From an uncultured Bacteroidales bacterium (GTDB taxonomy: Bacteria; Bacteroidota; Bacteroidia; Bacteroidales; Bacteroidaceae): a DNA stretch of 43,965 nt. The translations under genes were made by a program, and so were the position numbers. Each line of letters starts with the position of its first letter. Positions within the stretch are counted from its first letter, which is position 1. The stretch covers positions 1-43,965 of the forward strand of contig CADAGO010000024.1 in the NCBI GenBank assembly GCA_902787555.1, written 5' to 3'. Below are positions 4,355 through 35,264 of this stretch, one piece after another. The notes beneath the pieces are model-generated. The model was given only the letters and a program-made list of their open reading frames with translations, was not told where the DNA came from and made no database searches.

Positions 4355-4431
4355 CTTCTTCTCTTCTCTAACTTCTATAACTCCTTTAACTCCTTATAAT
4401 AACTCCTTTAACTTCTATATCACCCTCCCCC
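4355..4431. repeat. CT-rich low-complexity spacer with TTTAACTCC-type words
   Basis: The gap between the DUF3256 and flippase genes is made almost entirely of TAACTTC/TAACTCC words repeated with small variations. It resembles other AACT-type simple repeats in this window's spacers. No promoter or terminator is apparent. Confidence 0.5.
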
Positions 4432-5952
4432 ATGTCCCACAGCCGCATTGCTCGCAACACCCTCTATCTCTACGGTCAGCAGATCGTACAGATGGTTGTG
4501 GGTCTCATCACCACCCGCATCCTTATCAAGTCGTTAGGAGAGGTCGACTATGGATTGTTCAGTGTGTTGGGAGGCGTTATGTCAGTTTTCGTCGTACTCA
4601 ATGCCCTCGAGGCAGCCACCATGCGATTCATCACCTTCGAGCAGGGACAAGGAAGTGATACCGAACGCATGCATGTCGTTTTCAGCACAGCACAGCATGT
4701 CCATTTCGCCATTGCAGGCATCGTGCTCTTACTGGCAGAGACAGCCGGTATGTACTATGTGTGCAACTTTCTTGTCATGCCACCCGAGCGACTCACGGCA
4801 GCCATCATCGTATTCCAAATCTATATCATCACATCCATCTTCGGCATCATCTGTGCACCCTTCGATGCCCTTATCGTGGCATACGAAAAAATGGGTGTGT
4901 TTGCCTCCATCAGCATTTACAACACCATCATCAATCTCCTCATCGTACTGATTGTGAAATATGCCGATACCGACCGCCTTATCCTCTATGCCTCACTCAT
5001 CATGCTCCTGCAGATCAGTCTGCGACTCATCTACGGGTGGTACTGCAACCGTCATTTCCCTGAGACCCGAGGCCGTTGGGTGTTCGACCGCAAGCTGTTT
5101 TCTCAGATGTTCCGTTTCGGCATCTGGTCGTTCAACGGGACCCTTGCCACTATCGGCTACACACAAGGCATCAACCTCCTGCTCAACTATTTCTACAACC
5201 CAGTGATGAATACCGCCTTTTCGCTGGCAAACTCCGTCTATTCGAAGTTGTATAGCTTTGCAGAGAACTTCCTCATCGCGGTCAAGCCACAGTTGGTCAA
5301 GAACTACGCAGCAGGAAATATTGACTATATGCACCGTCTGATGATAACCTCCTCACAACTGGGAGTCTATCTGATGTTCATCCTTTCGTTGCCCGTGATG
5401 CTCGAAACCCACTTCATCTATTATATTTGGATAGGCGACATACCCGATCACACCGTATGGTTCCTGCGCATTGCCCTACTCTCCATTGGTGTAAACACCC
5501 TTGGCAATATCATGACCATGAGCATACAAGCCACAGGGCGCATCGCCAAGTATCAGGTCATCGAAGGCAACCTGTTGCTGCTCACAGTGCCCCTCGCCTG
5601 GTTCTGTCTGTGGAAAGGGCTGCCACCAGAATCCGTATTCTGCGCCCAACTGCTCATGTTTGTCATTACACAAGTTGCCCGTATGCTCATTGTGTGTCCT
5701 GCGCTCCAGTTGTCCATTTGGCTCTATATTCGTAAAGTAATCATCCGTCCCGTTGTAGTCATCATCGTAGGAAGTATCCTCCCCGTTCTGGTTCACAACT
5801 ATGGAGGACTGTCCGAGCACCCCATCACCCAGGTGTGCATTGTCACCTTCGTCAGTCTCATCTCCTCATGTCTCTCCGTTTACTACATCGGATGCACAAA
5901 CTCACAACGTCTATTCGTCCTGCAAAAACTGCGCACTATCATCCATCGATGA
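4432..5952 (+). CDS. Polysaccharide / lipid-linked oligosaccharide flippase (MOP superfamily, Wzx-like)
   Basis: This integral membrane protein of 506 residues has about 12-14 hydrophobic segments. The N-terminus (SRIARNTLYLYGQQIVQMVV, then TTRILIKSLGEVDYGLFSVL) is typical of O-antigen and capsule flippases of the MOP superfamily: a first helix, then an 'LG..DYG' turn into helix two. Such proteins move lipid-linked sugar repeats across the inner membrane. No glycosyltransferases are adjacent, so the substrate is unknown and it may act away from a capsule locus. The coding strand is strikingly C-rich compared with the minus-strand genes nearby. The start is the ATG at 4432. Distant relation to MATE transporters explains any local similarity to the gene at 1147-3678. 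Confidence 0.82.
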   Translation: MSHSRIARNTLYLYGQQIVQMVVGLITTRILIKSLGEVDYGLFSVLGGVMSVFVVLNALEAATMRFITFEQGQGSDTERMHVVFSTAQHVHFAIAGIVLLLAETAGMYYVCNFLVMPPERLTAAIIVFQIYIITSIFGIICAPFDALIVAYEKMGVFASISIYNTIINLLIVLIVKYADTDRLILYASLIMLLQISLRLIYGWYCNRHFPETRGRWVFDRKLFSQMFRFGIWSFNGTLATIGYTQGINLLLNYFYNPVMNTAFSLANSVYSKLYSFAENFLIAVKPQLVKNYAAGNIDYMHRLMITSSQLGVYLMFILSLPVMLETHFIYYIWIGDIPDHTVWFLRIALLSIGVNTLGNIMTMSIQATGRIAKYQVIEGNLLLLTVPLAWFCLWKGLPPESVFCAQLLMFVITQVARMLIVCPALQLSIWLYIRKVIIRPVVVIIVGSILPVLVHNYGGLSEHPITQVCIVTFVSLISSCLSVYYIGCTNSQRLFVLQKLRTIIHR

Positions 5953-14487: not shown

Positions 14488-17091
14488 TTAAAAACTCATG
14501 CGCACCTTACCCCTAATACCCCAGCGGTTGATGCCGGGATTGTCAAGATAAGTGAGGCGGCGTACATATTCAATATGTATCAATTTAAAGATGTTGTGCA
14601 CACCCAGTAATAACTCGATATATGGTGTCTTTTGGTCCATGACAACAGTATTGCATTCATAAGTCCCGTCTGATAGGAAATGTCCAGGGAAATAGAACAG
14701 ACCACTCACGTCGTTTGTCTTTGCAGGGTTGTTCTTGTCTGTAAGCGTGCCCCACAGTACATTCACGCCAATGTGTTCCCTCCACTTCAGTTTCTTCAGT
14801 AAAGGAATACGGTTGAAAAGCTTTCCGTTCAAATCCCATTCGTACATCAGCGACAGATAGCGGTCATTCAGGAACTCAAGGTTGCTAATCAGTGAGAAGG
14901 TATTGTCTTCAAGAATGTACGACTGATTGGCAGCAGGATGGATGAGTAACGGGAATGGTACTTTGTTCCACTGAATACCTCCCTGTATCAGGAAGTCCAT
15001 TTTTCCAAAACTATTTGGAATCCAAACACGCTTGTAAATAGATCCTTCTGTTACATTATATTCATACTCACCACCCAATAACTTATTGAAACCAATAGTG
15101 TGGCTTACGGTAATAATCGGAGCCTCCTTATTGATTTTGATTCGACGCTGTTTTGTATTGACGTACGCGGCACCTGGTTCGAACGAGATAGTACCCTTTG
15201 CTTCTGCTGTTGTCATGCTGCGCTTCCACATTGTAGGATCATTGACTGGCGCTCCCACACCATCGAGAGGCTGATAGAACATCGCATCGACAGGTTTGTT
15301 CTTGGTGTGCGTAAATGAAGCACTGAATTTCAAGCCGTTCAAGAATTCACGATCATAAGCGACTTTCACTTCCTTAGTTCGGTTAAACTGATCCACGCTG
15401 ACCGCCTTGAGCGCAAGGAACATATTATCCTTATCTGTCGGAATGAACTTATCAAACGGACTCACCACATCGTTCAGGTAACTGACAGAGAGATTGTTCA
15501 TAGGGAACTCACGAGGTAAATACGCCTTTTTATTGAATGAATAGACAAGCTGCGCCTTTCCATACACATTATGAGTTCTGGTGCCGTAAGCCACATACCC
15601 ACTCATGAAGAAATGGGGACAGAGGTTCGCGTTGGTCAAGGCTGATACACGGAAACGCCATTTGTCATAATGGTTGCTGGTGATGATAGTGTTGACAGGC
15701 CCTATATCGACATAATTAGGATGTACAGAGTCACCTGTCTCTACAAAGTTCTCTACCAAAGCCTTAAAACCAAAGATCACATATTTGAATCCTTTCACAT
15801 GCTGCAATCGATCAAGGAAGGTATCCATTTGACTCTCACTTTGCGTCAGTTCTACCTCCCGGTACTCATTCCAATAGGCATCGTCTTGCATTTCGGCATC
15901 AGGTTCTTTGAACACTGTTCCCTTGATATGTTTGAACACCTTATCAGAAATTTCATCGAACGAAAAGTTGTTGTTACGAATCACTCGTTGAACTTGCAGT
16001 TTATTCAAGAATGAAGCCAGTTTCAGTTCCACCAACATATCATTGCATACAGCCACCCGTTCGCCTGTAGGCAGTTCCTCGAAGTCTTGGGTAATAACCA
16101 TATTCTCCACAAAATTCACATCGCTGCGCGTCGGAATATTCAGCACTACCTTACGCACCTGATAACCGGAGTCAGCCATCACAAAGAGAGTACCAGAAAA
16201 TCCGAAATCCTGTGGGTTATTGGGGGTAAATTCCACCTGAATGACCTTATCTTTGTCAATTATCACAGTGTCTTCAATGTAGTATCTGTAGAACGAAATG
16301 GCACTATTGGCAATCGGGCTTTTAAACGGATGTTGGAACAGGCGGCACTCATTCTCATAGATATTGACATCCGTGAAGATGTCTTTCATCACTCCTGTGA
16401 GAATATCGCCCGTATTGACCAACTCATTCACACCTTTGCTGCTTTGGGCTTTGATTACCGTCTTTTCCGTATGCGGACTCTTACGATACAAGTTTTCAGA
16501 GATGGTCTCATCAACAGTAAGAGGCAGAATCAGCTTTCCCGTTTCCGGACAACGCTCCACATGGTCTTTAAGGAAAGCGAAACGTTTCATTTCGTTTTCC
16601 TCAAACACCTTTTCTGTGAACTCATTCAAAGCGAACACCATCTTTTCGTATTTCGAATATGTGTAGTAGTCTTTTTGTCTTAGGTCGTACGACTTCTTGT
16701 TGGCAATCACCTTCCTCATCAGTTCCACAGCAGGATTCTCGCGTCTGCTGTAACGACTGCGACGTGCTTCTACAGTTACCTCCTGTATTTGTCGGGGCGA
16801 ACTGACAAGCAAAATTTTCAAACTTTTCTTCTTGCCTGGGATGAGTCTTACTATTTGAGTTTCATATCCCATCGTCGATACTGTCAATTCGTTCCTATTG
16901 TCATCTTCTTTAATGGAGAAGCGTCCCTTAGAGTCGGTCATTCCCCCTGTCGTAGTTCCTGCATAGAATACATTGGCATAATCAATCGGCTGACGGGTCT
17001 TGGAATCAATAACCACACCTGTCACCTGGGCATATGCACCAAGCGACAGGAACAGCATCACGATTATATTTAATATCCAACGATTTCTCAA
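14488..17091 (-). CDS. DUF5686 / carboxypeptidase-regulatory-like outer-membrane protein
   Basis: This protein has 867 residues. After a signal peptide (NIIVMLFLSLGAYAQ) comes a CarboxypepD_reg-like beta-sandwich (about residues 22-105: VTGVVIDSKTRQPIDYANV, then TVSTMGYETQ). That domain is common at the N-terminus of Bacteroidetes TonB-dependent receptors. There is no TonB plug here; the remaining ~750 residues fit DUF5686, with a periplasmic part followed by a C-terminal strand-rich region ending in RGKVRMSF, an outer-membrane signal. Function is unknown. The start codon is TTG at 17089-17091: an in-frame TAG lies three codons upstream, and the next Met would truncate the signal peptide. It heads the DUF5686-TPR-DUF4105 run. 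Confidence 0.8.
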   Translation of the reverse strand: MRNRWILNIIVMLFLSLGAYAQVTGVVIDSKTRQPIDYANVFYAGTTTGGMTDSKGRFSIKEDDNRNELTVSTMGYETQIVRLIPGKKKSLKILLVSSPRQIQEVTVEARRSRYSRRENPAVELMRKVIANKKSYDLRQKDYYTYSKYEKMVFALNEFTEKVFEENEMKRFAFLKDHVERCPETGKLILPLTVDETISENLYRKSPHTEKTVIKAQSSKGVNELVNTGDILTGVMKDIFTDVNIYENECRLFQHPFKSPIANSAISFYRYYIEDTVIIDKDKVIQVEFTPNNPQDFGFSGTLFVMADSGYQVRKVVLNIPTRSDVNFVENMVITQDFEELPTGERVAVCNDMLVELKLASFLNKLQVQRVIRNNNFSFDEISDKVFKHIKGTVFKEPDAEMQDDAYWNEYREVELTQSESQMDTFLDRLQHVKGFKYVIFGFKALVENFVETGDSVHPNYVDIGPVNTIITSNHYDKWRFRVSALTNANLCPHFFMSGYVAYGTRTHNVYGKAQLVYSFNKKAYLPREFPMNNLSVSYLNDVVSPFDKFIPTDKDNMFLALKAVSVDQFNRTKEVKVAYDREFLNGLKFSASFTHTKNKPVDAMFYQPLDGVGAPVNDPTMWKRSMTTAEAKGTISFEPGAAYVNTKQRRIKINKEAPIITVSHTIGFNKLLGGEYEYNVTEGSIYKRVWIPNSFGKMDFLIQGGIQWNKVPFPLLIHPAANQSYILEDNTFSLISNLEFLNDRYLSLMYEWDLNGKLFNRIPLLKKLKWREHIGVNVLWGTLTDKNNPAKTNDVSGLFYFPGHFLSDGTYECNTVVMDQKTPYIELLLGVHNIFKLIHIEYVRRLTYLDNPGINRWGIRGKVRMSF

Positions 17092-17179: not shown

Positions 17180-18487
17180 CTAATCAATTTCCTCATCTGC
17201 CTCGTAACCACCCATCTCACGCAATGCATTTTTCAGCATTACATACTGTTGGAACAAGTGATTAACAGGCACTTCGTCCTTTGTAAAGTCATGCATTGGA
17301 CTCTTCAGATAGAAACTGAGGAATCGCTGAATACCGAAACGTCCAGCACGAGCTGCAAGGTCGCTTAGCAAACAGAGATCGAGCAACAATGGTGCTGCAA
17401 GGATAGAGTCACGGCACAGGAAATTGATTTTGATTTGCATCGGGTACCCCATCCATCCGAAGATGTCGATATTGTCCCATCCTTCCTTATTATCGTTGCG
17501 AGGAGGATAGTAGTTGATACGCACCTTGTGATAATAGTCCGTGTAGAGGTCGGGCTGTTTTTCTGGAACAAGAATCGACTCCAACGTAGATAACTTGCTG
17601 ACTTCCTTCGTATGGAAGTTTGCAGGTTCGTCGAGTACCAGACCATCCCGGTTCCCTAAGATGTTAGTAGAGAACCAACCACTCAGACCTAAACAGCGTG
17701 TACCGATGATAGGAGCAAAACCACTCTTCACCAATGTCTGCCCGGTCTTGAAATCCTTACCAGCGATAGGCATCCTCGTCTTCTCAGCCAATTCCCACAT
17801 GGCAGGAATATCGACCGTGGTGTTAGGAGCACCCATGATGAACGGAGCACCTTCAGTCAGAGCAGCATAGGCGTAGCACATCGATGGAGCAATATGTTCT
17901 TTATCATCAGCTTTCATCGCTGCCTCAAGAGCAGCAAGCGAGCCGTGTACCGGTTCAAAATAAGGCACATATATTTCGGTTGATGCAGCCCATGCAACTA
18001 CGATACGGGAACAGCCGTTCTTCTGTTTGAATGTGCGGATGTCGTTACGGAGTTGTTCCACCATCTCCCAACGAGTCTTACCTGTCATCACATTGTCGCC
18101 ATCGAGTCGTTTCGCAAAATTCTTGTCGAACGCAGCCTTCATCGGAACGATTTGCTCTAGTTCGTCTTTTACAGGCTCGATGTCCTTTTCTTTGAGCACC
18201 TCTGCATACATCGCACTGCGGTATGCATCAGCAGGGTAAACATCCCATGCGCCAAAGACAATATCTTTCAGCTCCGCAATCGGAACGATTTCCCTATATG
18301 AAAGGTATTTCTTTTCGTTTCCTTTTCCCACTCGGATTTTGTCGTACTCAATCATTGAACCGACAGGTTTTGACAATCCCTTGCGTACCATGAGTACGCC
18401 AGTCATAAATGTAGAAGTGACGGCACCCAGTCCAACGACCATGATGCCTAATTTACCATCTGCTGGTTTTACAGTTTGGTTAGCCAT
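17180..18487 (-). CDS. myo-Inositol-1(3)-phosphate synthase
   Basis: This enzyme converts glucose-6-phosphate to inositol-phosphate using bound NAD. The 435-residue protein begins with a Rossmann motif (LGIMVVGLGAVTSTFMTGV) and carries family segments SGWFSTNILGNRDGLVL, KTGQTLVKSGFAP and QIKINFLCRDSILAAPLLLDL. The length suits the compact prokaryotic branch. ATG 18487 is chosen because the frame's upstream codons run through the promoter box. It has its own promoter and lies just downstream of the HAD, CDP-alcohol phosphatidyltransferase, ATP-grasp and nucleotidyltransferase genes, all on the same strand. From established work on Bacteroides, MIPS of this type feeds inositol-lipid synthesis; the cluster here is consistent with that. 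Confidence 0.93.
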   Translation of the reverse strand: MANQTVKPADGKLGIMVVGLGAVTSTFMTGVLMVRKGLSKPVGSMIEYDKIRVGKGNEKKYLSYREIVPIAELKDIVFGAWDVYPADAYRSAMYAEVLKEKDIEPVKDELEQIVPMKAAFDKNFAKRLDGDNVMTGKTRWEMVEQLRNDIRTFKQKNGCSRIVVAWAASTEIYVPYFEPVHGSLAALEAAMKADDKEHIAPSMCYAYAALTEGAPFIMGAPNTTVDIPAMWELAEKTRMPIAGKDFKTGQTLVKSGFAPIIGTRCLGLSGWFSTNILGNRDGLVLDEPANFHTKEVSKLSTLESILVPEKQPDLYTDYYHKVRINYYPPRNDNKEGWDNIDIFGWMGYPMQIKINFLCRDSILAAPLLLDLCLLSDLAARAGRFGIQRFLSFYLKSPMHDFTKDEVPVNHLFQQYVMLKNALREMGGYEADEEID

Positions 18488-18526
18488 TTTATCTATATTA
18501 TTTGTTATCTTTTTATTAATTTTCTG

Positions 18527-18534
18527 CAAAGATA
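18527..18534 (-). promoter_or_regulatory. -7 box for the inositol-phosphate synthase gene
   Basis: The minus-strand sequence TATCTTTG lies 40 bp before the ATG at 18487. TTTG- and ATTG-like words are found 18-22 bp further upstream (18553-18560) and may be the -33 box. This implies that MIPS can be expressed apart from the upstream operon. Confidence 0.6.
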
Positions 18535-18681
18535 CATATTTTTTATGGGCAACAATCAAATTTGAAGTCTAAATATACATCCTTTTGAGATTTATTAACT
18601 ACTTTCACACGATTTAACGCCTATTAGATGACAGCATCAAGTAACAAATGTGACAACAAAAGAGGAGAGCACTGAAGGTTA

Positions 18682-19404
18682 TTATAACACTTGTTCTGGT
18701 AAAATGGCAATATCTGTTAGGACGAGTGACGGCAAGGATTCGTCAAACTGCTCATTCCCCCACCCTGCACCTTTGAGCCAGACGGTCTGACAGCCAAGCT
18801 GACGGGCGGGCAGGATATCCTTGGAGAAGGAATCACCTATCACCAAGGTCTCTTCTGGGTGTAATCCAAGGGCTTCGATCCCCATGCGAAAGATAGCGGG
18901 GTCGGGCTTCCGCACTCCTACTGCTGACGACTCTATGATTTTCTGGAAATACTCTAATTGGAATTCTTGAAGGATGGTGGGCATATTGCCATAGAAGTTG
19001 CTCACCAGCACCATAGGAAAATGAGTAGAGAGTTTCTTCAGTACAGAACGGCTTACGTTCACCACTTGGCATACCCGCTGATAACTGCGTAGCATAATAT
19101 GCTCTGTACAAGTGCGACGGGTCAGTTCACCGACATCCCAAAGACGATGTTCTAACAGATAGAGTGTCTCGATGTCAATCTTTGTACGCAACAAGTCCAT
19201 GAAGGTGTGCTCGGGACGGATGAGTGGTTGTCGTGCTAACTCACGTTCGGCATACACATAGCTCTCACGGAACTGCTCTTTCGTGACAGCTACCTGTTCT
19301 TTCTGATACATCTCCCACAACACCTCTGACCAATGTGTGCTGTTGGTGTCGAGCGTTCCTCCGTAGTCGAAGATGAGTCCTTTAATACTTTCCTTCTTCA
19401 ACAT
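18682..19404 (-). CDS. HAD-superfamily hydrolase in inositol-lipid cluster
   Basis: This protein has 240 residues with a Rossmannoid HAD core and an alpha-helical cap (subfamily IA type). Motif I reads FDYGGTLD with nucleophile Asp13. Motif II is VLVSN, motif III is the Lys in VRKPDPAIF, and motif IV is GDSFSKD. The usual second Asp of motif I (DxD) is Gly15, seen in some active HAD phosphatases but worth noting. By position it is the best candidate to dephosphorylate an inositol-phosphate lipid or inositol-phosphate; this is inferred from context. It overlaps the CDP-alcohol phosphatidyltransferase gene by 23 bp and ends about 195 bp before the MIPS start. Confidence 0.82.
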   Translation of the reverse strand: MLKKESIKGLIFDYGGTLDTNSTHWSEVLWEMYQKEQVAVTKEQFRESYVYAERELARQPLIRPEHTFMDLLRTKIDIETLYLLEHRLWDVGELTRRTCTEHIMLRSYQRVCQVVNVSRSVLKKLSTHFPMVLVSNFYGNMPTILQEFQLEYFQKIIESSAVGVRKPDPAIFRMGIEALGLHPEETLVIGDSFSKDILPARQLGCQTVWLKGAGWGNEQFDESLPSLVLTDIAILPEQVL

Positions 19405-20335
19405 TTTGGCGCAATTGGTTACAGAACTTTTCGTGAGAATGACGCATATAGAAATACATTCCCATCAGGACGGTCATCTCAAACAGAGGGTAGATGTAAG
19501 GCTTGTCGATCAAGCAACTGACATATAGCACGATGGCACGTGTATTGAATGACAACATGTTCACATATTTAATCAATGACAGACTATGCTGACGGAAATC
19601 ATCACGGAGTGACTGTGGTATGACTTCGGGATAATGCTGCTTCACGCTTGCCATCAACCGTTGGAACTGAGGTGTTTGGGACTCTTGTGCCTTGGTATAA
19701 GGGACATAGGTGAACAGGAAAAACTTCCAAATGACATCATCACTCCACTTCGTCTTGTCGTACAAAGCCTTTTGCTGTTTGTAGTTGTCGAGTTCACTAT
19801 TAGCTGCACCCTTTTGAAAGAAAAGGTGCGCCTGACGGTAATAATCTGCCAAATTACATTGACGACTGTGACAACATACACCGGAAAAAGTCATCAATGC
19901 AAAAGCCCACAACCCCCATTGTATATCAGTAAAGGGGATGTTTTGGGGGAACAGACGTAGAGCCAAAGAAAAATAGATGCAAAAGAACCAAATGTCGCCT
20001 GCTGCTCCGTCGAGAATACGTCCTAAACGTGTTTTCTTTCCTGAGAGACGTGCCAGTTGCCCATCAGTACTGTCGTAGATATTGGCCCACATCACCAGCA
20101 GGATGCCAATGATGTTGTAGATGAATCCTTCAGTGGTATTCGCCCTATGGACGAAAAATAGACCTGAGGCTGCACCTATTATCATTGACAACACGGTAAC
20201 TGTATTGGGATGAACATTCATCTTGTCGAACAATATAGCCCAATAGTATCCCAAAGGGCGCACAATCTTCAGGTCGAGCCACTCTTCGATATCGTTTGAC
20301 TTGAGAGTGGATTGCAATTTTGTTTTATTTGTCAT
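19382..20335 (-). CDS. CDP-alcohol phosphatidyltransferase-family enzyme
   Basis: This membrane enzyme of about 317 residues has several hydrophobic helices. The family motif is present: D88-x2-D91-G92-x2-A95-R96-x8-G105-x3-D109. In the family the motif ends with D-x3-D, but here residue 113 is Gly and the Asp is at 114 (LDGAAGD), one residue later. Such enzymes join a CDP-activated group to an alcohol. In this cluster the expected product is an inositol-phosphate lipid. The start is ATG 20335, because the longer frame begins at TTG 20347. It overlaps the ATP-grasp gene by 11 bp and the HAD gene by 23 bp, so the genes are translationally coupled. Confidence 0.85.
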   Translation of the reverse strand: MTNKTKLQSTLKSNDIEEWLDLKIVRPLGYYWAILFDKMNVHPNTVTVLSMIIGAASGLFFVHRANTTEGFIYNIIGILLVMWANIYDSTDGQLARLSGKKTRLGRILDGAAGDIWFFCIYFSLALRLFPQNIPFTDIQWGLWAFALMTFSGVCCHSRQCNLADYYRQAHLFFQKGAANSELDNYKQQKALYDKTKWSDDVIWKFFLFTYVPYTKAQESQTPQFQRLMASVKQHYPEVIPQSLRDDFRQHSLSLIKYVNMLSFNTRAIVLYVSCLIDKPYIYPLFEMTVLMGMYFYMRHSHEKFCNQLRQNVEEGKY

Positions 20336-21155
20336 TTTGTATCGCAATATTTGTTATCATTTCGGCAGCTTGTTCCCTGCAACGGGAAAAACTTGGCCAA
20401 TCATTTATATCAATCAGTTGTATCATTCCGTTTTCTTTTACCACACAATCACCTCCATACACATCTAATCCTATCACGGATGCAGCATGGTTACAAATAT
20501 CACATAGCTGTTGTTCAGAGAATGGATAATGATGTGAAGCACCATTAACGGTTTCATTGCCAAACTTGCTATGTCCGTCGGATGCATAGTACCATTCGAA
20601 GAAAGGTGTACCACGCACTCCATAGAATTTGATGAGATCGCCTTCGAGATGTTGTGACACTACTATGATGCTGATACCTCGTTGGCGCATGCAATCTGCA
20701 TAAGCTGCCAACCGCTCCGCATTCTGAACATAGACTACATCCTCAGCCACTTCTGCATACCCCTCCCCTTTTTTCAACCAACAGGGGAACACATTCCAAC
20801 TAACAGGGTCGTTTGACGGAAATAAACGGCTGAGCGCAAACGGGACATCCTCGTCCATTAGAATCTGTGTGAACAACTTTCGTTCGCTATTTCGCACAGA
20901 GACCGGAGTATTGATGACCTTAACCCCTTCACTTTCTAACGCTTGAAGGCAGTCTATCGTATGGGGTAATCGTCCCATCGTGAGAACGACATCTGCAGCC
21001 TTCATATCTGATAGAGTGAGCTGTTCCTCATGCACGCATGATACCATATGTCCGGCCTGCTGCACACGGCTTGCAACCGCATTCATAATTGCTGTGTCAC
21101 AATCCTCCATGTTAGGGGAAAAACAGCTTGCTCGATAGATACAGACAATGTTCAT
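20325..21155 (-). CDS. ATP-grasp-like protein in inositol-lipid cluster
   Basis: This is a soluble protein of 276 residues with ATP-grasp character. It has an N-terminal Rossmann-like preATP-grasp region (MNIVCIYRASCFSPN; AADVVLTMGRLPHT), a central phosphate-binding stretch (WLKKGEGYAEVAEDV), a QHLEGDLIKFYGV strand, and a C-terminal metal site in LDVYGGDCVVKENG followed by LIDINDWPSF, where Asp and Asn would bind Mg. ATP-grasp enzymes ligate carboxylates or, in the ITPK branch, phosphorylate inositol phosphates. Which applies here is not readable. It overlaps its neighbours by 4 and 11 bp. No ATP-dependent step is required by the simple inositol-phospholipid route, so this gene points to an extra modification. 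Confidence 0.7.
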   Translation of the reverse strand: MNIVCIYRASCFSPNMEDCDTAIMNAVASRVQQAGHMVSCVHEEQLTLSDMKAADVVLTMGRLPHTIDCLQALESEGVKVINTPVSVRNSERKLFTQILMDEDVPFALSRLFPSNDPVSWNVFPCWLKKGEGYAEVAEDVVYVQNAERLAAYADCMRQRGISIIVVSQHLEGDLIKFYGVRGTPFFEWYYASDGHSKFGNETVNGASHHYPFSEQQLCDICNHAASVIGLDVYGGDCVVKENGMIQLIDINDWPSFSRCREQAAEMITNIAIQNDK

Positions 21156-21847
21156 CTCAGAAAGCCCTCCGCTTTTTTAATATCAGCCGCATGGTCCACA
21201 TCGAAAATCTTGGAAAACCGATACGCCTGAAGTTTTAATCCGTCACAGACCATCTGACGCTGGAAATTACGCATTCTCGACTGCCCCTCACCGACACAAC
21301 GCTTGAGGGTTGCGAACGACTTATCAGTCAGACAATAGATCCCTCCAGAGATAAAACGAGTATCTTCGTGCGGCTCATCATAAAAACCTTTGATACACAT
21401 CTGCTCGTCTGTAGCAATAAATAAGGGGCTTTCATCGTCCACATAATCGGTAACCGCCATAAGGCCATCAACATCCATATCCTTAAATGTCCGGATATAC
21501 TGCTTGAACTCGTCTTCACGGAAAACTGTATCTACTGTAGTCAGACAGAATCTACCGCTCCCCAAAAGAGAATGCAGTTCATAGAAACTATGCATCGAAC
21601 TGGGTGTTGTCTTGACAATCAGCTTGATGCGGGCATCGTGCTGTTGCAAATCACGGATATGCTGTTGTGTAAGCGGAGTCAGGTTGTTTGTTATGATGGC
21701 TATCTGTTCTGCATCATTTTCGCTGAAGATGCGAATGAGACGATCTATCATCGCCTCACCGTTGAGTACCACTAATGGCTTGGGAACCAGGATTCCCTCT
21801 TTAACCATTCTTGACCCTTCACCTGCTGCTAATATTCCATACTTCAT
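21152..21847 (-). CDS. NTP-transferase (sugar/inositol-phosphate nucleotidyltransferase-like)
   Basis: This protein has 231 residues with the glycosyltransferase-A-type nucleotidyltransferase fold: N-terminal ILAAGEGSRM with a downstream PKPLVVL lysine, a TTVDT metal-binding Asp near residue 104, and a C-terminal FDVDHAADIKKAE, the usual 'DVD..ED...AE' ending. Family members attach NMP to sugar phosphates or phospho-alcohols. In archaea and some thermophiles a related enzyme makes CDP-inositol from inositol-1-phosphate for a CDP-alcohol phosphatidyltransferase. MIPS and a CDP-alcohol phosphatidyltransferase are both nearby, so the same is a reasonable hypothesis here but is not proven. It overlaps both neighbours by 4 bp (ATGA). 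Confidence 0.8.
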   Translation of the reverse strand: MKYGILAAGEGSRMVKEGILVPKPLVVLNGEAMIDRLIRIFSENDAEQIAIITNNLTPLTQQHIRDLQQHDARIKLIVKTTPSSMHSFYELHSLLGSGRFCLTTVDTVFREDEFKQYIRTFKDMDVDGLMAVTDYVDDESPLFIATDEQMCIKGFYDEPHEDTRFISGGIYCLTDKSFATLKRCVGEGQSRMRNFQRQMVCDGLKLQAYRFSKIFDVDHAADIKKAEGFLR

Positions 21848-22935
21848 TGCTCTTCAACCATACTTGATTTCTGTTGTGAGGTGACAGGAGAAATATTCCC
21901 TTTCACTTTTGTTCCTATCTTCATCAACAGCATACCTATACATGTCCAGACCAATTCACGCAACCTACATATAATCGAGATGAATACAGCTATCGTCATA
22001 GCCTCCTTTAACGTCAGAAGCGCTCCTGAGGCTCCCACCATCTTCATCTGAACGGTCGACATCGCAAAGCCGCCCTCACGTCCTCCTAACTGTAACGGCA
22101 TGAAGAATAGCAGATTGGCGAACAGGGATGTAAATGCCAGTATGACAAACGAATACATAAACAGTTGCGGCATCGTGCCTTGAACGTTTACCAAGCGCAA
22201 CATGAAGAAGATTTCGAACGACTGCATCACTCTGCCAACATATTCAAGACAGAACGATGCATAGAAGCTATGCTTGTTCTGACCATGTAGCTGGGCTATC
22301 TGGCAATCAATGTTTCTGAGTTCTTCTGCATGCTTCTCCATAAAACGCCTGCACCAATTACGGCATCCTGGCAACTTGCTGAGAAACTTAATGATGGTCA
22401 TCACCATCCCGCGCTTATAACCCCTCACAAACATATAAATACCGCTCAGAGCAAAGAGTGCTATGAGAGGTAGGATGATAGCCATTCTCGTATCGATCGG
22501 GACAAAAAGCACATAGAGTACGACAGCTGTGAGCCAATACCAAAAATGAGCAAAGATATGCGTCATCGCAAACAACAACACAGATGACGTTGCACGCTCA
22601 CGTCCGACATAAGGCGTCAGCTCCATAATCTTATATGGCTCTCCACCCATCAATCCGGCTGGGGTAGCATAGTTCAATGCAAACCCTGTGATAGTTATCT
22701 TATAGAGTTTCCAAAAGGGAACGGGACAGTCTCCGCTTCCCTTGATGATGATGCGCCACGTCCAGGCATTCATGAAATACAACAAAACCCACATGCCCAA
22801 AACCGCAAAGATCCAGTATCCTGCATGACGGACATGATTCCACATCTCAACGAAACTGACCTTGAAAGTCAGAATCATGATGATGATGGCAACAATTCCA
22901 AAGAGAAAAAATATGTTACGAGTCTTGTTCTTCAC
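21844..22935 (-). CDS. Flippase-like membrane protein (LPG_synthase_TM / AglD-MprF type)
   Basis: This protein of about 363 residues has seven or eight transmembrane helices and the hallmarks of the lysylphosphatidylglycerol-synthase membrane domain family: a first helix pair, NAWTWRIIIKG, TGFALNYATPAGLMGGEPYK, and PLQLGGREGGFAMS in a later helix. The MprF-type catalytic domain is absent, so it is the stand-alone membrane form, often linked to lipid or glycolipid handling. In this cluster a role in moving or accommodating inositol lipids is plausible but inferred. The start is GTG at 22933-22935, six bases after the pdxA stop. It ends with a 4-bp overlap with the nucleotidyltransferase gene. 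Confidence 0.8.
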   Translation of the reverse strand: MKNKTRNIFFLFGIVAIIIMILTFKVSFVEMWNHVRHAGYWIFAVLGMWVLLYFMNAWTWRIIIKGSGDCPVPFWKLYKITITGFALNYATPAGLMGGEPYKIMELTPYVGRERATSSVLLFAMTHIFAHFWYWLTAVVLYVLFVPIDTRMAIILPLIALFALSGIYMFVRGYKRGMVMTIIKFLSKLPGCRNWCRRFMEKHAEELRNIDCQIAQLHGQNKHSFYASFCLEYVGRVMQSFEIFFMLRLVNVQGTMPQLFMYSFVILAFTSLFANLLFFMPLQLGGREGGFAMSTVQMKMVGASGALLTLKEAMTIAVFISIICRLRELVWTCIGMLLMKIGTKVKGNISPVTSQQKSSMVEEQ

Positions 22936-22941
22936 TGTCGC

Positions 22942-24057
22942 CTACAATTCCATTCCCATATCGTTATCGTCGGAAGTATCCTGATCGAGTTTCAGTTTGT
23001 CACTATCATCCTTCTTCTCATAATACTGCTTCTTCAAGGGATGGGCATGTGCGACATCATAGGTGTGGCGATTACGTACCACGTCAATAGCTGTATATAT
23101 TGCTTTGCGGAACGAAGCCTCATTAGCAACTCCTTGTCCTGCGATATCGTACGCGGTTCCATGATCGGGTGACGTACGTACGATAGGCAGACCTGCCGTG
23201 TAGTTCACACCATCATCCATGGCTAATGCCTTGAATGGTGCCAACCCTTGATCATGATACATAGCCAATATTGCATCGAAATGTGTATAATTGCCTGAGC
23301 CAAAGAATCCGTCAGCCGCATAGGGACCAAAACACTTGATACCCTCTGTAAACAGTTGCTCGACAGTTGGTGTGATGATATCACGTTCCTCTGTGCCAAT
23401 AAGCCCTCCGTCGCCACAGTGCGGATTAAGCGACAATACGGCAATACGTGGATTGTCTATCAGGAAATCACGTTTGAGTGTGCGGTCCAGTATCCGCAAC
23501 TTTTCTTCAATGAGATTTTTTGTGATTGATTCGGCAACCATACTGATAGGAAGGTGGGTGGTAGCAAGTGCTACTTTCAATGTGTCGTTCATCAAAATCA
23601 TCAGTGCCTTTTGACCGTCTCCCACTTTTTCTTCGATATACTCAGTATGACCTGGAAAATGGAAATTGTCAGACTGAATATTGTTCTTGTTGATAGGTGC
23701 AGTTACCAACACATCGATGTCACCTTTACGATAGTCTTCCAACGCATGCTCGATGGAGACGAGTGCAGCACGACCTGCTTCAGACGTAGATTTACCAAAA
23801 TCTATCTTGATTTCTTCTTCGCCAAAGCAGTTGACTATATTCAACGAATTATCATCAGCCTCACGCGCACTGTTCTTCACAATAAAATTGGTGGCACACT
23901 CAAATGACTTGCGGTGATAAGTTGCAGTCTTTGGAGAGCCATATACGATTGGAGTACACAATTCCAACATTTCAGGATTCTCGAATGTTTTCAGGATAAC
24001 CTCGTATCCTACTCCATTGATATCCCCATGTGTGATTCCTACTTTTATCTTTCTCAT
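22942..24057 (-). CDS. pdxA: 4-Hydroxythreonine-4-phosphate dehydrogenase
   Basis: PdxA oxidises 4-phospho-hydroxy-threonine in the DXP-dependent pathway to pyridoxal phosphate. The 371-residue protein carries the family motifs: GITHGDINGVGYEVI at the start, TAPINKNNIQ, FPGHTEYI with the metal-binding His, LNPHCGDGGLIGTEE, YHDQGLAPFKAL, and RTSPDHGTAYDIAG with another metal-binding His. The C-terminus has an unusual acidic tail (KKDDSDKLKLDQDTSDDND) beyond the normal core. It is in a run with rlmN and a DUF4837 gene upstream (10 bp and 4 bp gaps) and the inositol-lipid genes downstream. Neighbouring glyA and rlmN include PLP-using metabolism, a loose functional link at most. Confidence 0.95.
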   Translation of the reverse strand: MRKIKVGITHGDINGVGYEVILKTFENPEMLELCTPIVYGSPKTATYHRKSFECATNFIVKNSAREADDNSLNIVNCFGEEEIKIDFGKSTSEAGRAALVSIEHALEDYRKGDIDVLVTAPINKNNIQSDNFHFPGHTEYIEEKVGDGQKALMILMNDTLKVALATTHLPISMVAESITKNLIEEKLRILDRTLKRDFLIDNPRIAVLSLNPHCGDGGLIGTEERDIITPTVEQLFTEGIKCFGPYAADGFFGSGNYTHFDAILAMYHDQGLAPFKALAMDDGVNYTAGLPIVRTSPDHGTAYDIAGQGVANEASFRKAIYTAIDVVRNRHTYDVAHAHPLKKQYYEKKDDSDKLKLDQDTSDDNDMGMEL

Positions 24058-31099: not shown

Positions 31100-32227
31100 C
31101 TAAATACGTGATTTGAACTCTTCGTAGCCAAAGCGTTTCCAAGGGGTCATTTCGCCAGAATAGCGGATGTAGATAGCTGGCAGGGGCATTCCGTTGAACG
31201 TGTTGGTCTTCACCATAGAATAAATCGCCATATCTCCAAAAACAATTTCATCTCCCTCGTGAATCAGCTGATCGAAATGATAAGTGCCAATGATATCGCC
31301 CGAAAGACATGTCGGACCTCCCAAACGACAGGCATACTGTCCGTCGCCATTCGACGGAGACAGTATTGGTGGCGTGTATGGCATCTCTATGACATCAGGC
31401 ATATGACAGGCAGCCGATGTGTCAACAATGACGTTCGTGACCCCATCATCGCCTTTGGGCTGTACTTCAAGTACATGGCAATGAAGTTCACCTGCATTGA
31501 GTGCTACAGCCTCTCCTGGCTCAATATAGACGGAGAGCCCGTACTGCTCTTGCATGTGACGGATGCAGCGCTCTAGACGCTCAATATCGTAATCAGAACG
31601 GGTGATATGATGTCCACCTCCAAAGTTTATCCACTTCATTCGGCTCAAATAGCTGCCGAACTGTTCCTCTACTGCGTTGAGGGTGGTTTCCAAATCATCG
31701 GAGTTTTGTTCACAAAGGGTATGAAAATGCAAGCCATCAATCAACTCCAACTGATGGGACGTCATCTGCCGGAATTCACTCAGTCGTGTCCCAAGCCTTG
31801 AACCTGGTGCACAGGGGTCGTAAATGGCGTGTCCTTCCTGCGTGGAACACTCTGGATTGATGCGCAACCCTACTTCAAGTCCTGCAGCCTTAGCTCGCTC
31901 TCCATACAACGACAGCTGACGGGGAGAATTGAAGACGATGTGATCGCAAATACGGAGTATCTCATCCATATCTGCCTCCTGAAATGCGGGCGAGAAGATA
32001 TGATTCTCAGCATCAGGCATCTCTTCATGACACAATCGCGCCTCATAAAGTCCCGATGCTGTAGCACCGTTGAGATAGCGGGCAATCAACGGATAGAGCG
32101 CATAGCAACTGAAACACTTCTGCGCAAGAAGTATTTTGCATCCAGTGCGGTCAATCACCCCTCGAAGCACTTTGAGATTGGCTTCGAGAAGGTCTGCATC
32201 GATGACGAAATAAGGACTTGAAATCAT
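31100..32227 (-). CDS. nspC: Carboxynorspermidine/carboxyspermidine decarboxylase
   Basis: NspC is a PLP enzyme of the alanine-racemase fold that decarboxylates carboxyspermidine to spermidine, the last step of the alternative spermidine pathway. The 375-residue protein shows the PLP lysine in LLAQKCF (Lys37), the FHTLCEQN loop, the phosphate-binding NFGGGHHIT, YIEPGEAVAL, and the catalytic Cys in GPTCLSGD near residue 300. All look intact. It overlaps the upstream dehydrogenase gene by 4 bp (ATGA), which couples the two enzymes that act in sequence. It is the last gene of the five-gene polyamine operon; no clear terminator hairpin follows. Confidence 0.95.
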   Translation of the reverse strand: MISSPYFVIDADLLEANLKVLRGVIDRTGCKILLAQKCFSCYALYPLIARYLNGATASGLYEARLCHEEMPDAENHIFSPAFQEADMDEILRICDHIVFNSPRQLSLYGERAKAAGLEVGLRINPECSTQEGHAIYDPCAPGSRLGTRLSEFRQMTSHQLELIDGLHFHTLCEQNSDDLETTLNAVEEQFGSYLSRMKWINFGGGHHITRSDYDIERLERCIRHMQEQYGLSVYIEPGEAVALNAGELHCHVLEVQPKGDDGVTNVIVDTSAACHMPDVIEMPYTPPILSPSNGDGQYACRLGGPTCLSGDIIGTYHFDQLIHEGDEIVFGDMAIYSMVKTNTFNGMPLPAIYIRYSGEMTPWKRFGYEEFKSRI

Positions 32228-33483
32228 GGAACCAATACAGGATTCTCATCAACCTTCCAGGGAAGTCCCCACTTGTTGAGAGCTTCCATATATGGATCAG
32301 GGTCGAATTCTTCTACGGTAAACACACCTGGGCGCTTCCACAATCCTTGCAGCACCATAGCAGTACCAATCATAGCAGGCACACCTGTTGTATAGGAAAT
32401 AGCTTGCGATTCTACTTCACGATAGCATTCCTGATGGTCGCATACATTATAAATATATAAGGTGCGTTCTTTACCGTCCTTGATACCTGTGAAGATACAG
32501 CCGATATTGGTCTTTCCTACAGTACGAGGACCAAGCGATGCCGGATCGGGCAAAAGACGACGCAAGAACTGAATAGGAACAATCTGATGACCTTCGAACT
32601 CTACCGGCTCTGTGCCGAGCATACCTACATTTTCCAAACATTTCATGTGGGTAAGATAGCTTTGACCAAACGTCATGAAGAAACGGATACGCTTCACGTG
32701 CGGTATATTCTGCGCCAAAGATTCGATTTCCTCATGGTGGAGCAGATACATGTCTTTCTCCCCCACTCCATCGAAATTATAAGTGCGATGAATCTCCATT
32801 GGCTTGGTTTCCACCCAGTGGCCATTTTCCCAGTAGGAACCATTTGCGCTCACTTCGCGCAGATTGATTTCAGGATTAAAGTTCGTTGCAAACGGATAGC
32901 CGTGATCGCCACCATTACAGTCAAGGATGTCGATTGTATGGATTTCGTCAAAGTAATGCTTTTGGGCGTATGCAGTGAAGACACTGGTCACGCCTGGGTC
33001 GAATCCCGTTCCTAAAAGGGCTGTGATGCCTGCCTGTTCAAAACGCTCACGATAAGCCCATTGCCAAGAATAGTCAAAGTAGGCAGTAAAGCCCTTCTCC
33101 TTGCAGCGCTTCTCGTAAATGGCACGCCACTCTGGGTCATTTGTATCCTCACATTCGTAGTTTGCTGTATCTACATAATCTACCTTTGTCTTCAGACAAG
33201 CCTCCATGATGGTGAGGTCCTGATATGGTAAGGCAAGATTGAGCACAATATCCGGCTTCACTTCGTTGATTAATGCCACAAGCTGATCTACATTGTCAGC
33301 ATCAACTTGCGCAGTAGTGATGACAGACTTTGTCTTTCCTTCGAGTTTCTGCTTCAGTGCGTCACATTTACTCTTCGTACGGCTGGCGATACAGATTTCA
33401 CCAAACACATCTGAGTTTTGGGCACATTTGCGGATAGCAACTCCTGCCACTCCGCCACATCCGATGACTAATACTTTCTTCAT
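32224..33483 (-). CDS. Carboxyspermidine dehydrogenase (saccharopine-dehydrogenase fold)
   Basis: This 419-residue enzyme begins with a Rossmann NAD(P)H site (VLVIGCGGVAG) and has the saccharopine-dehydrogenase-type segments SRTKSKCDALK, DIVLNLALPYQDLTIMEACL, VDTANYE and GTGFDPGVTSVF. In this operon it should condense putrescine with aspartate semialdehyde and reduce the product to carboxyspermidine. Close relatives use the same fold in lysine metabolism, but the 4-bp overlap with nspC and the polyamine context favour the CASDH role. The gap to the agmatinase gene upstream is 9 bp. Confidence 0.92.
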   Translation of the reverse strand: MKKVLVIGCGGVAGVAIRKCAQNSDVFGEICIASRTKSKCDALKQKLEGKTKSVITTAQVDADNVDQLVALINEVKPDIVLNLALPYQDLTIMEACLKTKVDYVDTANYECEDTNDPEWRAIYEKRCKEKGFTAYFDYSWQWAYRERFEQAGITALLGTGFDPGVTSVFTAYAQKHYFDEIHTIDILDCNGGDHGYPFATNFNPEINLREVSANGSYWENGHWVETKPMEIHRTYNFDGVGEKDMYLLHHEEIESLAQNIPHVKRIRFFMTFGQSYLTHMKCLENVGMLGTEPVEFEGHQIVPIQFLRRLLPDPASLGPRTVGKTNIGCIFTGIKDGKERTLYIYNVCDHQECYREVESQAISYTTGVPAMIGTAMVLQGLWKRPGVFTVEEFDPDPYMEALNKWGLPWKVDENPVLVP

Positions 33484-33492
33484 ATTGTTTCG

Positions 33493-34353
33493 TTATTGGT
33501 TGATTGCTAATAATAATTCGCGTACCACTTTCCCTGCTACAGCGGTAGAAACACCTGAGGGGTCAAGGGTGGGAGCCAGTTCGGTAACATCAAGTGCCAC
33601 AACGTTCACAGTCTGACATACCTTCGTCAAGGCTTTTCGCAGTTGGTCAAAGCTTACGCCTCCTGCTTCAGGAGTACCTGTTCCTGGGAAGACTGACGGA
33701 TCGAGCACATCAAGATCGATAGTGAAATAGACAGGCACCCGACTACTTGCCAAATCATCGGCAACACTATCCAGTCCTTCGAGCGAGAATGGATGGAGGT
33801 CTGTATGACCAGCTCGTGCAAACCCGAACTCTGCCCGTTCGCCTGAACGGATGCCAAACTGGTGGATGCGTCCGTCACCCAAGATATCGTGACAACGACG
33901 AAGCACGCATGCATGCGATAGTTTTACGCCTAAATAGTCGTCACGGAGGTCGGCATGAGCATCGAAATGTATGATATGCAAATCGGGATATTTCTTAGCA
34001 ACCTCACGCACTGTTCCAAGCGTCACCAAATGTTCACCTCCAAGCATGAAGGGTATTTTTCCAGCATTGAGAATCTCAGAAGTACACGCTGATATTGCAT
34101 CGAGCGTCATTTCTGCCGATCCCATAGGCAACTCCAGGTCGCCTGCATCATAGACATTAAGATCCTCGAGGTCGCAATTCAAGTATGGAGAGTATGTTTC
34201 CAACCCATACGATTCGTGGCGGATAGCAGCACTTCCAAAACGTGCACCGGGACGATAGCTGGTGGTAGAATCGAAAGGTGCTCCAAAGATGACCACTTTG
34301 GCATCCTCGTATTCCGCATCGCATGCGATGAATGTCTCTATATTCTTTTTCAT
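33493..34353 (-). CDS. speB: Agmatinase (ureohydrolase)
   Basis: Agmatinase splits agmatine into putrescine and urea using two Mn ions. The protein has about 286 residues and all ureohydrolase metal motifs: GGEH, HFDAHADLRDDY, and FTIDLDVLDPSVFPGTGTPEAGG with its two Asp residues. The N-terminal GAPFDSTTSYRPGARFGSAAIR is typical of the agmatinase branch. I use ATG 34353: the longer frame starts with TTG at 34368, five codons earlier, so either could be right. The SpeE-like gene ends just upstream and the dehydrogenase gene starts 9 bp downstream. The agmatine supply would come from the decarboxylase two genes upstream. Confidence 0.94.
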   Translation of the reverse strand: MKKNIETFIACDAEYEDAKVVIFGAPFDSTTSYRPGARFGSAAIRHESYGLETYSPYLNCDLEDLNVYDAGDLELPMGSAEMTLDAISACTSEILNAGKIPFMLGGEHLVTLGTVREVAKKYPDLHIIHFDAHADLRDDYLGVKLSHACVLRRCHDILGDGRIHQFGIRSGERAEFGFARAGHTDLHPFSLEGLDSVADDLASSRVPVYFTIDLDVLDPSVFPGTGTPEAGGVSFDQLRKALTKVCQTVNVVALDVTELAPTLDPSGVSTAVAGKVVRELLLAINQ

Positions 34354-34371
34354 ATCGTCAGGTCTCAATGG

Positions 34372-35232
34372 TCATCGAATCGTTTCTACTTTCGACAGCA
34401 TCTTCTCCACATAGGCAGGCAGCGCAAAGCAGCCTTTGTGCAAATTTGTGGTATAGTAGTTGGTTTCGATGCCCAGTTTGTTCCATCGGTTGGCATCAAG
34501 GTCGTCCACAGGGTGGTATTTCTTCGACGCATAACCAAAGAGCCAATAGCCAGATGGGTAGGTAGGAATATGTGCCTGATAGACACGACTGATAGGGAAG
34601 CACTCCACGATACGTTTATGGGCTTTCTGCGTCTCTGTACGGTCGTCGGCATAGAACGGCGACTGATGCTGGTTAACCATAATGCCGTCTTCTTTCAGCG
34701 CCTTATAGCACGAGCCGTAAAACTCTCGTGACAGAAGACTCTCGCCTGGTCCGTAGAATCCTGCCGAGTCGACAATGATGACATCGTAATCGCCTACAAT
34801 ATGGCGCACATAGCGCAATGCGTTCTGTGTATAAATGGTCACCTTGGGGCTATCCAACCCACTTGCTGAGAACGGTAGGTATTTCTTTGCAGCCTCAACC
34901 ACACCAACATTCACTTCAACCATATCGATGCGCTCCACATCAGGATATTTCAGCAACTCACGCACCACACCTCCATCACCTGCTCCGAATACAAGTATCT
35001 TACGAGGATTAGGATGTACAGCCATCGGGATGTGGGTCATCATCTCGTGGTAGATGAACTCGTCGCGCTCAGTCATGACGATATATCCGTCGGCAGTGAG
35101 CACACGTCCGTATTCGGGCGACTCAAAGATGTCGATACGATTGTGGTCGTTTTCCTCCGAGAAGATGTGCTTGTTGACCTTGATTGACAACTTCACATTC
35201 TCAGTATGCAGTTCTGAAAACCAAAATTCCAT
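34372..35232 (-). CDS. SpeE-like polyamine aminopropyltransferase homologue with altered active site
   Basis: This 286-residue protein has the spermidine-synthase fold. The conserved parts are VMTERDEFIYHEMMTHIP, the SAM-type site FGAGDGGVVREL with VEVN, the NQHQSPFY strand, and YPSGYWLFGYASK. The usual D-S-(S/T)-D-P motif that grips the amine substrate reads D155-S-A-G158-F159, so the first Asp is kept but the second Asp and the Pro are lost. The DNA at 34741-34800 gives no sign of a frameshift. A standard spermidine synthase is therefore doubtful, particularly as the operon already has a full alternative spermidine route and no speD (decarboxylated-SAM supply) is seen in the window. It may use a different acceptor or be a non-catalytic partner. 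Confidence 0.75.
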   Translation of the reverse strand: MEFWFSELHTENVKLSIKVNKHIFSEENDHNRIDIFESPEYGRVLTADGYIVMTERDEFIYHEMMTHIPMAVHPNPRKILVFGAGDGGVVRELLKYPDVERIDMVEVNVGVVEAAKKYLPFSASGLDSPKVTIYTQNALRYVRHIVGDYDVIIVDSAGFYGPGESLLSREFYGSCYKALKEDGIMVNQHQSPFYADDRTETQKAHKRIVECFPISRVYQAHIPTYPSGYWLFGYASKKYHPVDDLDANRWNKLGIETNYYTTNLHKGCFALPAYVEKMLSKVETIR

Positions 35233-35264
35233 CTAACTATAAACTTTTTACTATCAACTTTCAA

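Follow-up and report, generated by a model that had tools for sequence, protein, structure and literature searches.

Organization of the locus

Positions 1 to 43,965 of contig CADAGO010000024.1 of an uncultured Bacteroidales bacterium (assembly GCA_902787555.1; 2.69 Mb, 82%-complete), referred to here as the window, carry an operon for which an original prediction, made from the sequence alone, had proposed a role in inositol-lipid synthesis. At 17180..22935, in the same place as predicted, a minus-strand run of six genes was found, which from position 22935 to 17180 encodes an LPG_synthase_TM membrane protein, a nucleotidyltransferase (NTP transferase, NTP), an ATP-grasp-like protein, a CDP-alcohol phosphatidyltransferase (CDPOH), a HAD-superfamily hydrolase (HAD) and myo-inositol-phosphate synthase (MIPS); five of the six scored over their Pfam cut-offs. 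The operon is the alternative inositol-lipid cluster of Heaver et al. 2022, described there in B. vulgatus and Prevotella (PMC9246714).

The first gene (21844..22935) encodes a YbhN/LPG_synthase_TM integral membrane protein (PF03706; 71.3 bits, cut-off 33.4), which might transfer lipid across the membrane. It is followed, all on the minus strand, by the genes for the NTP transferase (21152..21847; PF00483, 45.7 bits, over cut-off), a proposed cytidylyltransferase yielding CDP-inositol or CDP-inositol phosphate; the ATP-grasp-fold protein (20325..21155), a proposed inositol-3-phosphate 1-kinase recognized through sub-threshold family matches and conserved residues; CDPOH (19382..20347, likely start ATG 20335; PF01066, 36.8 bits, cut-off 22); HAD (18682..19404; PF00702, 57.8 bits, over cut-off), proposed to remove a 3-phosphate; and MIPS (17180..18559, likely start ATG 18487; PF07994, 332 bits, and PF01658, 103 bits, both over cut-offs). 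The overlaps of 4, 4, 11 and 23 bp reported earlier were reproduced, the third being 11 bp if counted from the ATG of CDPOH and 23 bp from its TTG. The description of the cluster as joined holds for the five overlapping genes and fails for MIPS, which is uncoupled: its open reading frame lies at least 122 bp past HAD, and a candidate promoter element, TATCTTTG (18527..18534, minus strand), read by eye from the sequence and resembling the Bacteroidota -7 promoter element, stands ahead of MIPS. The G+C content of the operon (0.44-0.45) is unremarkable within the window. Because the window genome encodes a serine palmitoyltransferase scoring over its cut-off (NF047600, 677.5 bits, cut-off 640), ceramide is a plausible acceptor for the lipid-forming step.

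Co-occurrence of the module genes

The family survey comprised one draw of 121 genomes, identical in each gene search, and the ATP-grasp gene was detected in 78 of them. Every one of these 78 also encodes NTP and CDPOH, and 77 encode HAD, the sole exception (G051) having a cluster that ends inside CDPOH at a contig end; among the 43 genomes lacking ATP-grasp, NTP is found in 1, CDPOH in 14 and HAD in none. In 120 of 121 genomes, ATP-grasp and NTP are either both present (78) or both absent (42), an agreement far beyond chance, and no genome carries NTP and CDPOH without ATP-grasp. The gene set is clearly conserved in relatives, a point on which the original prediction had staked itself beforehand. 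MIPS is present in 71 of the 78 ATP-grasp genomes, as against 0 of the 14 with CDPOH alone. Phosphatidylinositol phosphate (PIP) synthase of the BT_1523 type occurs in 15 of the 121 genomes, only one of which (G118) also has ATP-grasp; in the 82%-complete window genome, a search for it returned weak matches alone, the best of which (1.8e-6) was the cluster's own CDPOH. BT_1523 matches were kept to 1e-70, PfkB matches at 1e-40 and HAD matches at 1e-20. Rows left out were G027 (8e-6) and G007 (3e-4) for ATP-grasp, both 490-aa frames, with G007 being RLAN-RimK by Pfam; G045, G071, G096 and G116 for NTP (1e-4 or weaker); and G005, G006, G026, G045, G057 and G080 for CDPOH (1e-5 or weaker).

The same association is seen at the level of gene neighbourhoods. 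Of 80 named loci, the best 80 of at least 562 confirmed candidates and nearly all from Bacteroidales, 75 have NTP, 79 CDPOH and 77 HAD; wherever NTP is present, it ends no more than 400 bp from the start of ATP-grasp, and CDPOH starts no more than 500 bp past the ATP-grasp end in 72 of the 80. All four genes occur together in 12 of 12 loci from outside the family (11 from other classes, 1 from the same class), and the LPG_synthase_TM gene accompanies them in 28 of the 80 named loci and 11 of these 12. A search of the phylum matched 22 of 392 genomes, of which 15 gave strong matches and 7 gave weak ones in frames of 484-563 aa; three of the weakly matching loci (L216-L218) were retrieved, and L217, which was Pfam-scanned, is RLAN-RimK. 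In genus g13, NTP is located on another contig in all nine ATP-grasp genomes, the cluster neighbourhood having been viewed in four of them (L085, L086, L088, L089). Across the 182 loci scanned for fusions, NTP and ATP-grasp form a single protein in nine, a distribution that requires at least five state changes (gains or losses) on a FastTree tree built from 135 sequences.

The clusters outside the family contain additional genes. MlaE/MlaF/MlaD-type lipid transport genes are present in 8 of the 12 (L204-L213 among the set), and a class-III aminotransferase together with a Gfo/Idh oxidoreductase is present in 8, of which 7 also have Mla-type genes; apart from MlaF, these insert genes were identified by Pfam on L205 only. 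An amino-inositol lipid is conceivable in these organisms. Four clusters (L204, L205, L206, L208) have tandem ATP-grasp copies. ATP-grasp copies outside the family in which R62 is replaced by Q were considered as a marker and not used, as they did not consistently track the aminotransferase.

Candidate reactions and competing explanations

We tentatively favour, at somewhat below even confidence, the view that inositol phospholipids, inositol phosphoceramide or both are the products of the operon, formed through a CTP-activated head group rather than an activated lipid, with ATP-grasp and HAD performing a phosphate swap. What we observe is a conserved set of genes, the fusions among them and their catalytic residues; the reactions and ring positions that we infer are as follows. 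MIPS would convert glucose 6-phosphate to inositol 3-phosphate (Ins3P), which the ATP-grasp protein would phosphorylate on position 1 to inositol 1,3-bisphosphate, Ins(1,3)P2; NTP would activate the 1-phosphate with CTP, CDPOH would move the inositol phosphate from its CDP-activated form to ceramide or diacylglycerol, and HAD would remove the 3-phosphate from either the soluble intermediate or the finished lipid, whose transfer across the membrane would then fall to the YbhN-type protein. Kinase and phosphatase together would exchange the 3-phosphate for a 1-phosphate and lead to a D-1-linked lipid. Direct CTP activation of Ins3P would give a lipid linked via D-3 (L-1) instead of the usual D-1, which a 1-kinase and a 3-phosphatase would correct. 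ADP-heptose synthesis follows the same logic of kinase, HAD phosphatase and nucleotidyltransferase.

The family matches of the ATP-grasp protein in the window are sub-threshold (MptN, 35 bits; rimK_fam, the RimK-like ligase model TIGR00768, 28.4 bits against a cut-off of 143.4), and nothing in Pfam is over cut-off; the assignment is supported by conservation of the ATP-grasp residues K128, D236, D249 and N251. K128, K176, D236 and D249-x-N251 are found in 134 of 134 family members, from which the E-x-N metal motif of the ligases compared is absent; in the 135-sequence set, only one protein, an RLAN-RimK, departs from D-x-N and K176. Five longer relatives, two of which were Pfam-scanned and are RLAN-RimK, have E-x-N in all cases and an arginine in the K176 strand. 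PDB alignments show D-x-N in ITPKs and E-x-N in the RimK-like structures 7qys, 3vpb and 7drm, with arginine aligned to K176 in 7qys and 7drm. A PDB search with profile A1 placed ITPK4 at the top (6e-4), and ITPKs accounted for six of the nine matches with E <0.01; constructs named inositol-tetrakisphosphate 1-kinase make up four of these six. The likeness to ITPK consists of the D-x-N followed by a proline and a short conserved stretch, the weak profile matches and the action of ITPK1 on Ins3P; the protein differs in its length (276 aa versus 324-490 aa in solved ITPK chains) and in scoring far below the PF05770 threshold. ITPK1 has been reported to accept Ins3P, free inositol not being a substrate of the ITPK family (PMC8024741). 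Judged by sequence, the protein looks like a family of its own among ATP-grasp proteins, resembling kinases in its active-site residues and ligases in its overall similarity.

Profile and family matches of NTP and CDPOH support the CDP-inositol route of the original prediction, a route that was already in print as a prediction. The catalytic residues D106, D216 and D218 of NTP are present in 118 of 118 sequences, and the CDPOH motif D92-x2-D95-G96-x2-A99-R100, G109, D113 in 145 of 145, its last Asp being found in 118 of 145. Both profiles match 4mnd (4e-4 and 8e-4, respectively), a bifunctional L-myo-inositol-1-phosphate cytidylyltransferase/CDP-inositol transferase, and both proteins match NCBIfam NF041135, the bifunctional Thermococcales enzyme, far under its cut-off (42.8 bits for NTP, cut-off 580); AF2299 and cholinephosphotransferase are further PDB matches of the CDPOH profile. 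Whether NTP is nearest to sugar-phosphate enzymes, which had been named as a ground for rejection, received a less clean answer: sugar-1-phosphate enzymes are indeed its best PDB matches (5e-9), with enzymes labelled for inositol phosphate next at 7e-5 and 4e-4. NTP further contains basic residues that could hold a second phosphate (R191 in 115, R193 in 118 and R197 in 111 of 118 sequences), and the aligned stretch of 4jd0, labelled 'Nucleotidyl transferase' and taken by us to be an inositol-1-phosphate cytidylyltransferase, is without arginine.

In HAD, D13, T17, K166 and D191 are conserved in 126 of 126 sequences, and in the PDB its profile finds HAD-type hydrolases, along with designs derived from one of them, and nothing AUR1-like. 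HAD is fused to CDPOH in five of the scanned loci and partially in one more, to YbhN in five and to ATP-grasp in one; in the last case, both domains lie in a single open frame (L152:7566-9491). This last fusion suits a HAD step before that of NTP, while the fusions to CDPOH and YbhN, together with R191, R193 and R197 of NTP, fit action at the lipid stage better, and on these sequence features we lean slightly toward the latter.

Genomes lacking MIPS help to place the ATP-grasp step. The product of MIPS is Ins3P (PMC8791184). Seven of the 78 ATP-grasp genomes have no MIPS, most of which could be explained by incomplete assemblies, and two of the seven clusters (L078, L080) end in or just past HAD at a contig end. 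In G310, a genome where no MIPS was found, a PfkB-family kinase gene stands at the cluster end, and its best PDB match (4e-26) is TM0415, an enzyme that phosphorylates myo-inositol (PMC5931981). TM0415-like kinases (E<=1e-40) occur in 27 of the 121 genomes, all among the 92 with ATP-grasp or BT_1523, and in 9 of 10 MIPS-less versus 18 of 82 MIPS-bearing inositol-lipid genomes (p=4e-5). Their presence in nine of ten makes the MIPS losses credible, and the kinase probably replaces MIPS after inositol uptake. A major facilitator superfamily (MFS) transporter gene is found near the kinase gene in 13 of 15 loci (L082, L107, L109, L115, L118, L124, L131, L137, L142, L166, L230, L232 and L234, but not L235 or L215, where the kinase lies at 4114-5049); three of these neighbours were family-searched and are FucP-like MFS proteins, whereas the neighbour in L235 is a peptidase. 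Several Phocaeicola loci have the kinase/MFS pair between HAD and MIPS. In one sequence of the Bacteroidota relative, only K171 and F221 of the five pyrophosphate (PPi) signature residues of TM0415 are kept, with A, C and I at positions 229, 232 and 266; a PPi-dependent kinase was rejected and, as most signature residues are replaced, ATP is the likelier donor.

The complete alternative cluster (NTP, ATP-grasp, CDPOH and HAD) is retained in six of the nine MIPS-less genomes with the kinase, so an inositol kinase does not make ATP-grasp dispensable, and the steps of ATP-grasp and HAD probably follow the formation of the first inositol monophosphate. Since the 92 genomes were chosen through their ATP-grasp or BT_1523 gene, this retention is partly a selection effect; the independent point is that no genome has NTP and CDPOH without ATP-grasp.

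Several observations weigh against the proposed phosphate swap. The larger profile A2 puts 7drm, which we take to be a peptide ligase, first in the PDB, with ITPKs falling to 0.02-0.08. Within NCBIfam, which covers prokaryotic families and may have no ITPK model, rimK_fam picks up 63 of the 66 members, with a best E-value of 2.5e-10, and LysX 52 of the 66 at E<=0.1; in Pfam, which has both models, RimK matches 6 of 66 (best 0.0014) and ITPK (PF05770) just 2 of 66 (best 0.19) at E<=1. HAD has Gly at Asp+2 in 126 of 126 sequences, where an acid/base Asp is usual, and for this reason its phosphatase role is uncertain; moreover, its fusion partner differs by lineage (CDPOH, YbhN or ATP-grasp), and its place in the order of steps is correspondingly tentative. 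Five of the 80 named loci (L112, L134, L140, L158, L159) have ATP-grasp, CDPOH and HAD with no NTP, an absence that applies to the locus stretch only; these loci also contain genes of the B. thetaiotaomicron type for an AUR1-like protein and for a second, PIP-synthase-like CDP-alcohol transferase, and four of the five have a PgpA-like gene. One of the ten MIPS-less genomes (G066) has no TM0415-like kinase. Finally, the product of TM0415 is Ins(1)P (PMC5931981), and if the Bacteroidales kinase acts in the same way, the swap would be needless in the genomes that use it.

A doubtful explanation that nevertheless carries appreciable weight is that the ATP-grasp protein is a ligase coupling a carboxylate, such as an amino acid, to inositol or an inositol lipid. 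It would account for the RimK-family matches and the leading A2 match just described, and the aminotransferase and Gfo/Idh genes in 8 of the 12 clusters outside the family could supply an amino-inositol; against this, D-x-N and K stand where the ligases examined have E-x-N and R, the core cluster is without an amino-acid activating gene, and for B. vulgatus and P. veroralis, species assigned to the alternative cluster, phosphoinositol dihydroceramide (PI-DHC) is the lipid on record (PMC9246714). The further ATP-dependent modification of the head group in the original prediction is half borne out: ATP-grasp is a regular member of the cluster, but the lipid reported from these two species is PI-DHC. 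A transient kinase step before CTP activation would fit PI-DHC better than a lasting decoration.

The pathway published by Heaver et al., in which NTP uses the MIPS product directly to form CDP-inositol, CDPOH makes phosphoinositol diacylglycerol (PI-DAG) and HAD, as an IPC-synthase-like enzyme, yields PI-DHC, is a proposal whose functions are stated there to be unconfirmed (PMC9246714), and its CDP-inositol step is repeated in a 2023 review (PMC10191378). It agrees with the 4mnd matches, that enzyme being annotated for L-myo-inositol-1-phosphate, which is Ins3P. Nevertheless, we consider this pathway unlikely as a full account: ATP-grasp would be an accessory with no role, despite being present in 78 of 78 genomes with NTP and CDPOH and fused to NTP in nine loci, and the HAD-type hydrolases matched by HAD are unlike the membrane enzyme AUR1.

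That HAD first dephosphorylates Ins3P, leaving free inositol for ATP-grasp to phosphorylate on position 1, appears more improbable. The same gene set would be accounted for, and the NTP~ATP-grasp fusions resemble sugar kinase/nucleotidyltransferase enzymes. MIPS-less genomes were considered as proof of such a free-inositol kinase and dropped, because the TM0415-like kinase in nine of ten points elsewhere; in six of them, TM0415-like kinase, ATP-grasp and HAD would form a futile cycle, and free inositol is not a substrate of known inositol-phosphate kinase families (PMC8024741).

A second class of CDPOH is represented by the 14 genomes that have CDPOH without ATP-grasp. An IspD/TarI-like cytidylyltransferase adjoins it in 12 of 12 genomes examined (L057-L064, L066, L068, L069 and L070 being among the loci of this class), three of these cytidylyltransferases having been family-searched; two extra CDPOH copies, in L065 and L067, are without such a neighbour, and a further copy, L075, comes from a genome in which the ATP-grasp module is present as well. 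The pair may serve to make a lipid whose head group is a different CDP-activated polyol. The CDPOH family appears to pair with soluble cytidylyltransferases in general, which favours CDP-head-group donors. That NTP in the window operon likewise activates some other sugar or polyol phosphate for a different head group, as its sugar-1-phosphate matches (5e-9) and this second class might suggest, is very improbable given the distribution of MIPS (71 of 78 versus 0 of 14) and the report of PI-DHC from species assigned to the alternative cluster (PMC9246714).

Relation to described systems and biological meaning

The cluster of Heaver et al. shares with the window operon the adjacent MIPS, NTP, CDPOH and HAD genes, the proposed CDP-inositol intermediate, and neighbours of the BT_1521 type (LPG_synthase_TM) and BT_1527 type (DUF5686). 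The B. vulgatus tags given for NTP (RS13095), Ptrans (RS13105) and HAD (RS13115) in PMC9246714 leave room for one gene after each, in line with seven named Phocaeicola loci whose order is NTP, ATP-grasp, CDPOH, YbhN, HAD. In the main text of PMC9246714, 'ATP-grasp' and BVU_RS13100, the tag between NTP and the transferase, each appear 0 times, and no word begins with 'stereo' or 'enantiomer'. Literature searches, limited to open-licence papers and judged from titles and abstract openings, gave no apparent description of a pathway of this kind with an ATP-grasp or inositol-bisphosphate step. Because Heaver et al. already proposed CDP-inositol, that idea is not new; what may be new, on the sequence evidence presented, is the regularly present and overlooked ATP-grasp step, possibly a new bacterial inositol-phosphate kinase, together with the evidence on where it acts.

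The CDP-inositol enzymes of the IPCT/DIPPS type (2xme, 4mnd) likewise combine a soluble cytidylyltransferase with a CDP-alcohol transferase. This type of route uses L-myo-inositol-1-phosphate directly, and a CDP-inositol lipid route was reportedly described in Rhodothermus marinus by Jorge, Borges and Santos; neither is known to have an ATP-grasp or HAD partner. The B. thetaiotaomicron system (BT_1522-1526) also begins with MIPS and Ins3P and ends in PI-DHC, but differs in using CDP-diacylglycerol activation, PIP, a PGP-type phosphatase and an AUR1-like synthase (PMC9246714, PMC8791184).

Upstream of the operon lies pdxA (22942..24057, minus strand; TIGR00557, 373.6 bits), a neighbour in 51 of the 80 named loci that is probably a housekeeping gene and is not counted in the pathway. 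Further away on the same strand are a gene for an alkaline phosphatase family protein (PF00245; 28290-30152) and a polyamine operon (31100-36725) encoding an Orn/Lys/Arg decarboxylase, a spermidine synthase, an arginase-family protein, a saccharopine-dehydrogenase-like protein and a PLP decarboxylase, a set that we take to be consistent with the carboxyspermidine route to spermidine. Downstream, a DUF5686/carboxypeptidase-regulatory-like protein of the BT_1527 type is encoded (14488..17091, minus strand; Pfam); 19 of the 80 named loci have its gene close to the cluster, and a BT_1527-type gene is also found near the BT-type cluster (PMC9246714).

A wider proposal, offered as possible and with considerable reserve, is that Bacteroidota have a soluble ATP-grasp-class Ins3P kinase forming Ins(1,3)P2, that the swap with HAD, before or after CTP activation, would then give the D-1 lipid known from the eukaryotic and BT routes, that gut bacteria would have inositol bisphosphates of their own, and that in separate lineages MIPS would have been replaced by inositol uptake and a TM0415-like kinase. 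Given the presence of ATP-grasp in 78 of 78 genomes, an attempt to reconstitute the pathway from only NTP, CDPOH and HAD may not succeed, or may produce an incorrect isomer. In B. thetaiotaomicron, inositol lipids influence the capsule, resistance to antimicrobial peptides and fitness in mice; for Prevotella, the alternative cluster is reported as the more frequent type (PMC9246714). Many gut bacteria probably use this conserved gene set to put inositol on their membrane lipids and, if the ATP-grasp protein is an inositol-phosphate kinase, common gut bacteria would possess a soluble activity of this kind, and their inositol lipids would become directly testable for stereochemistry.

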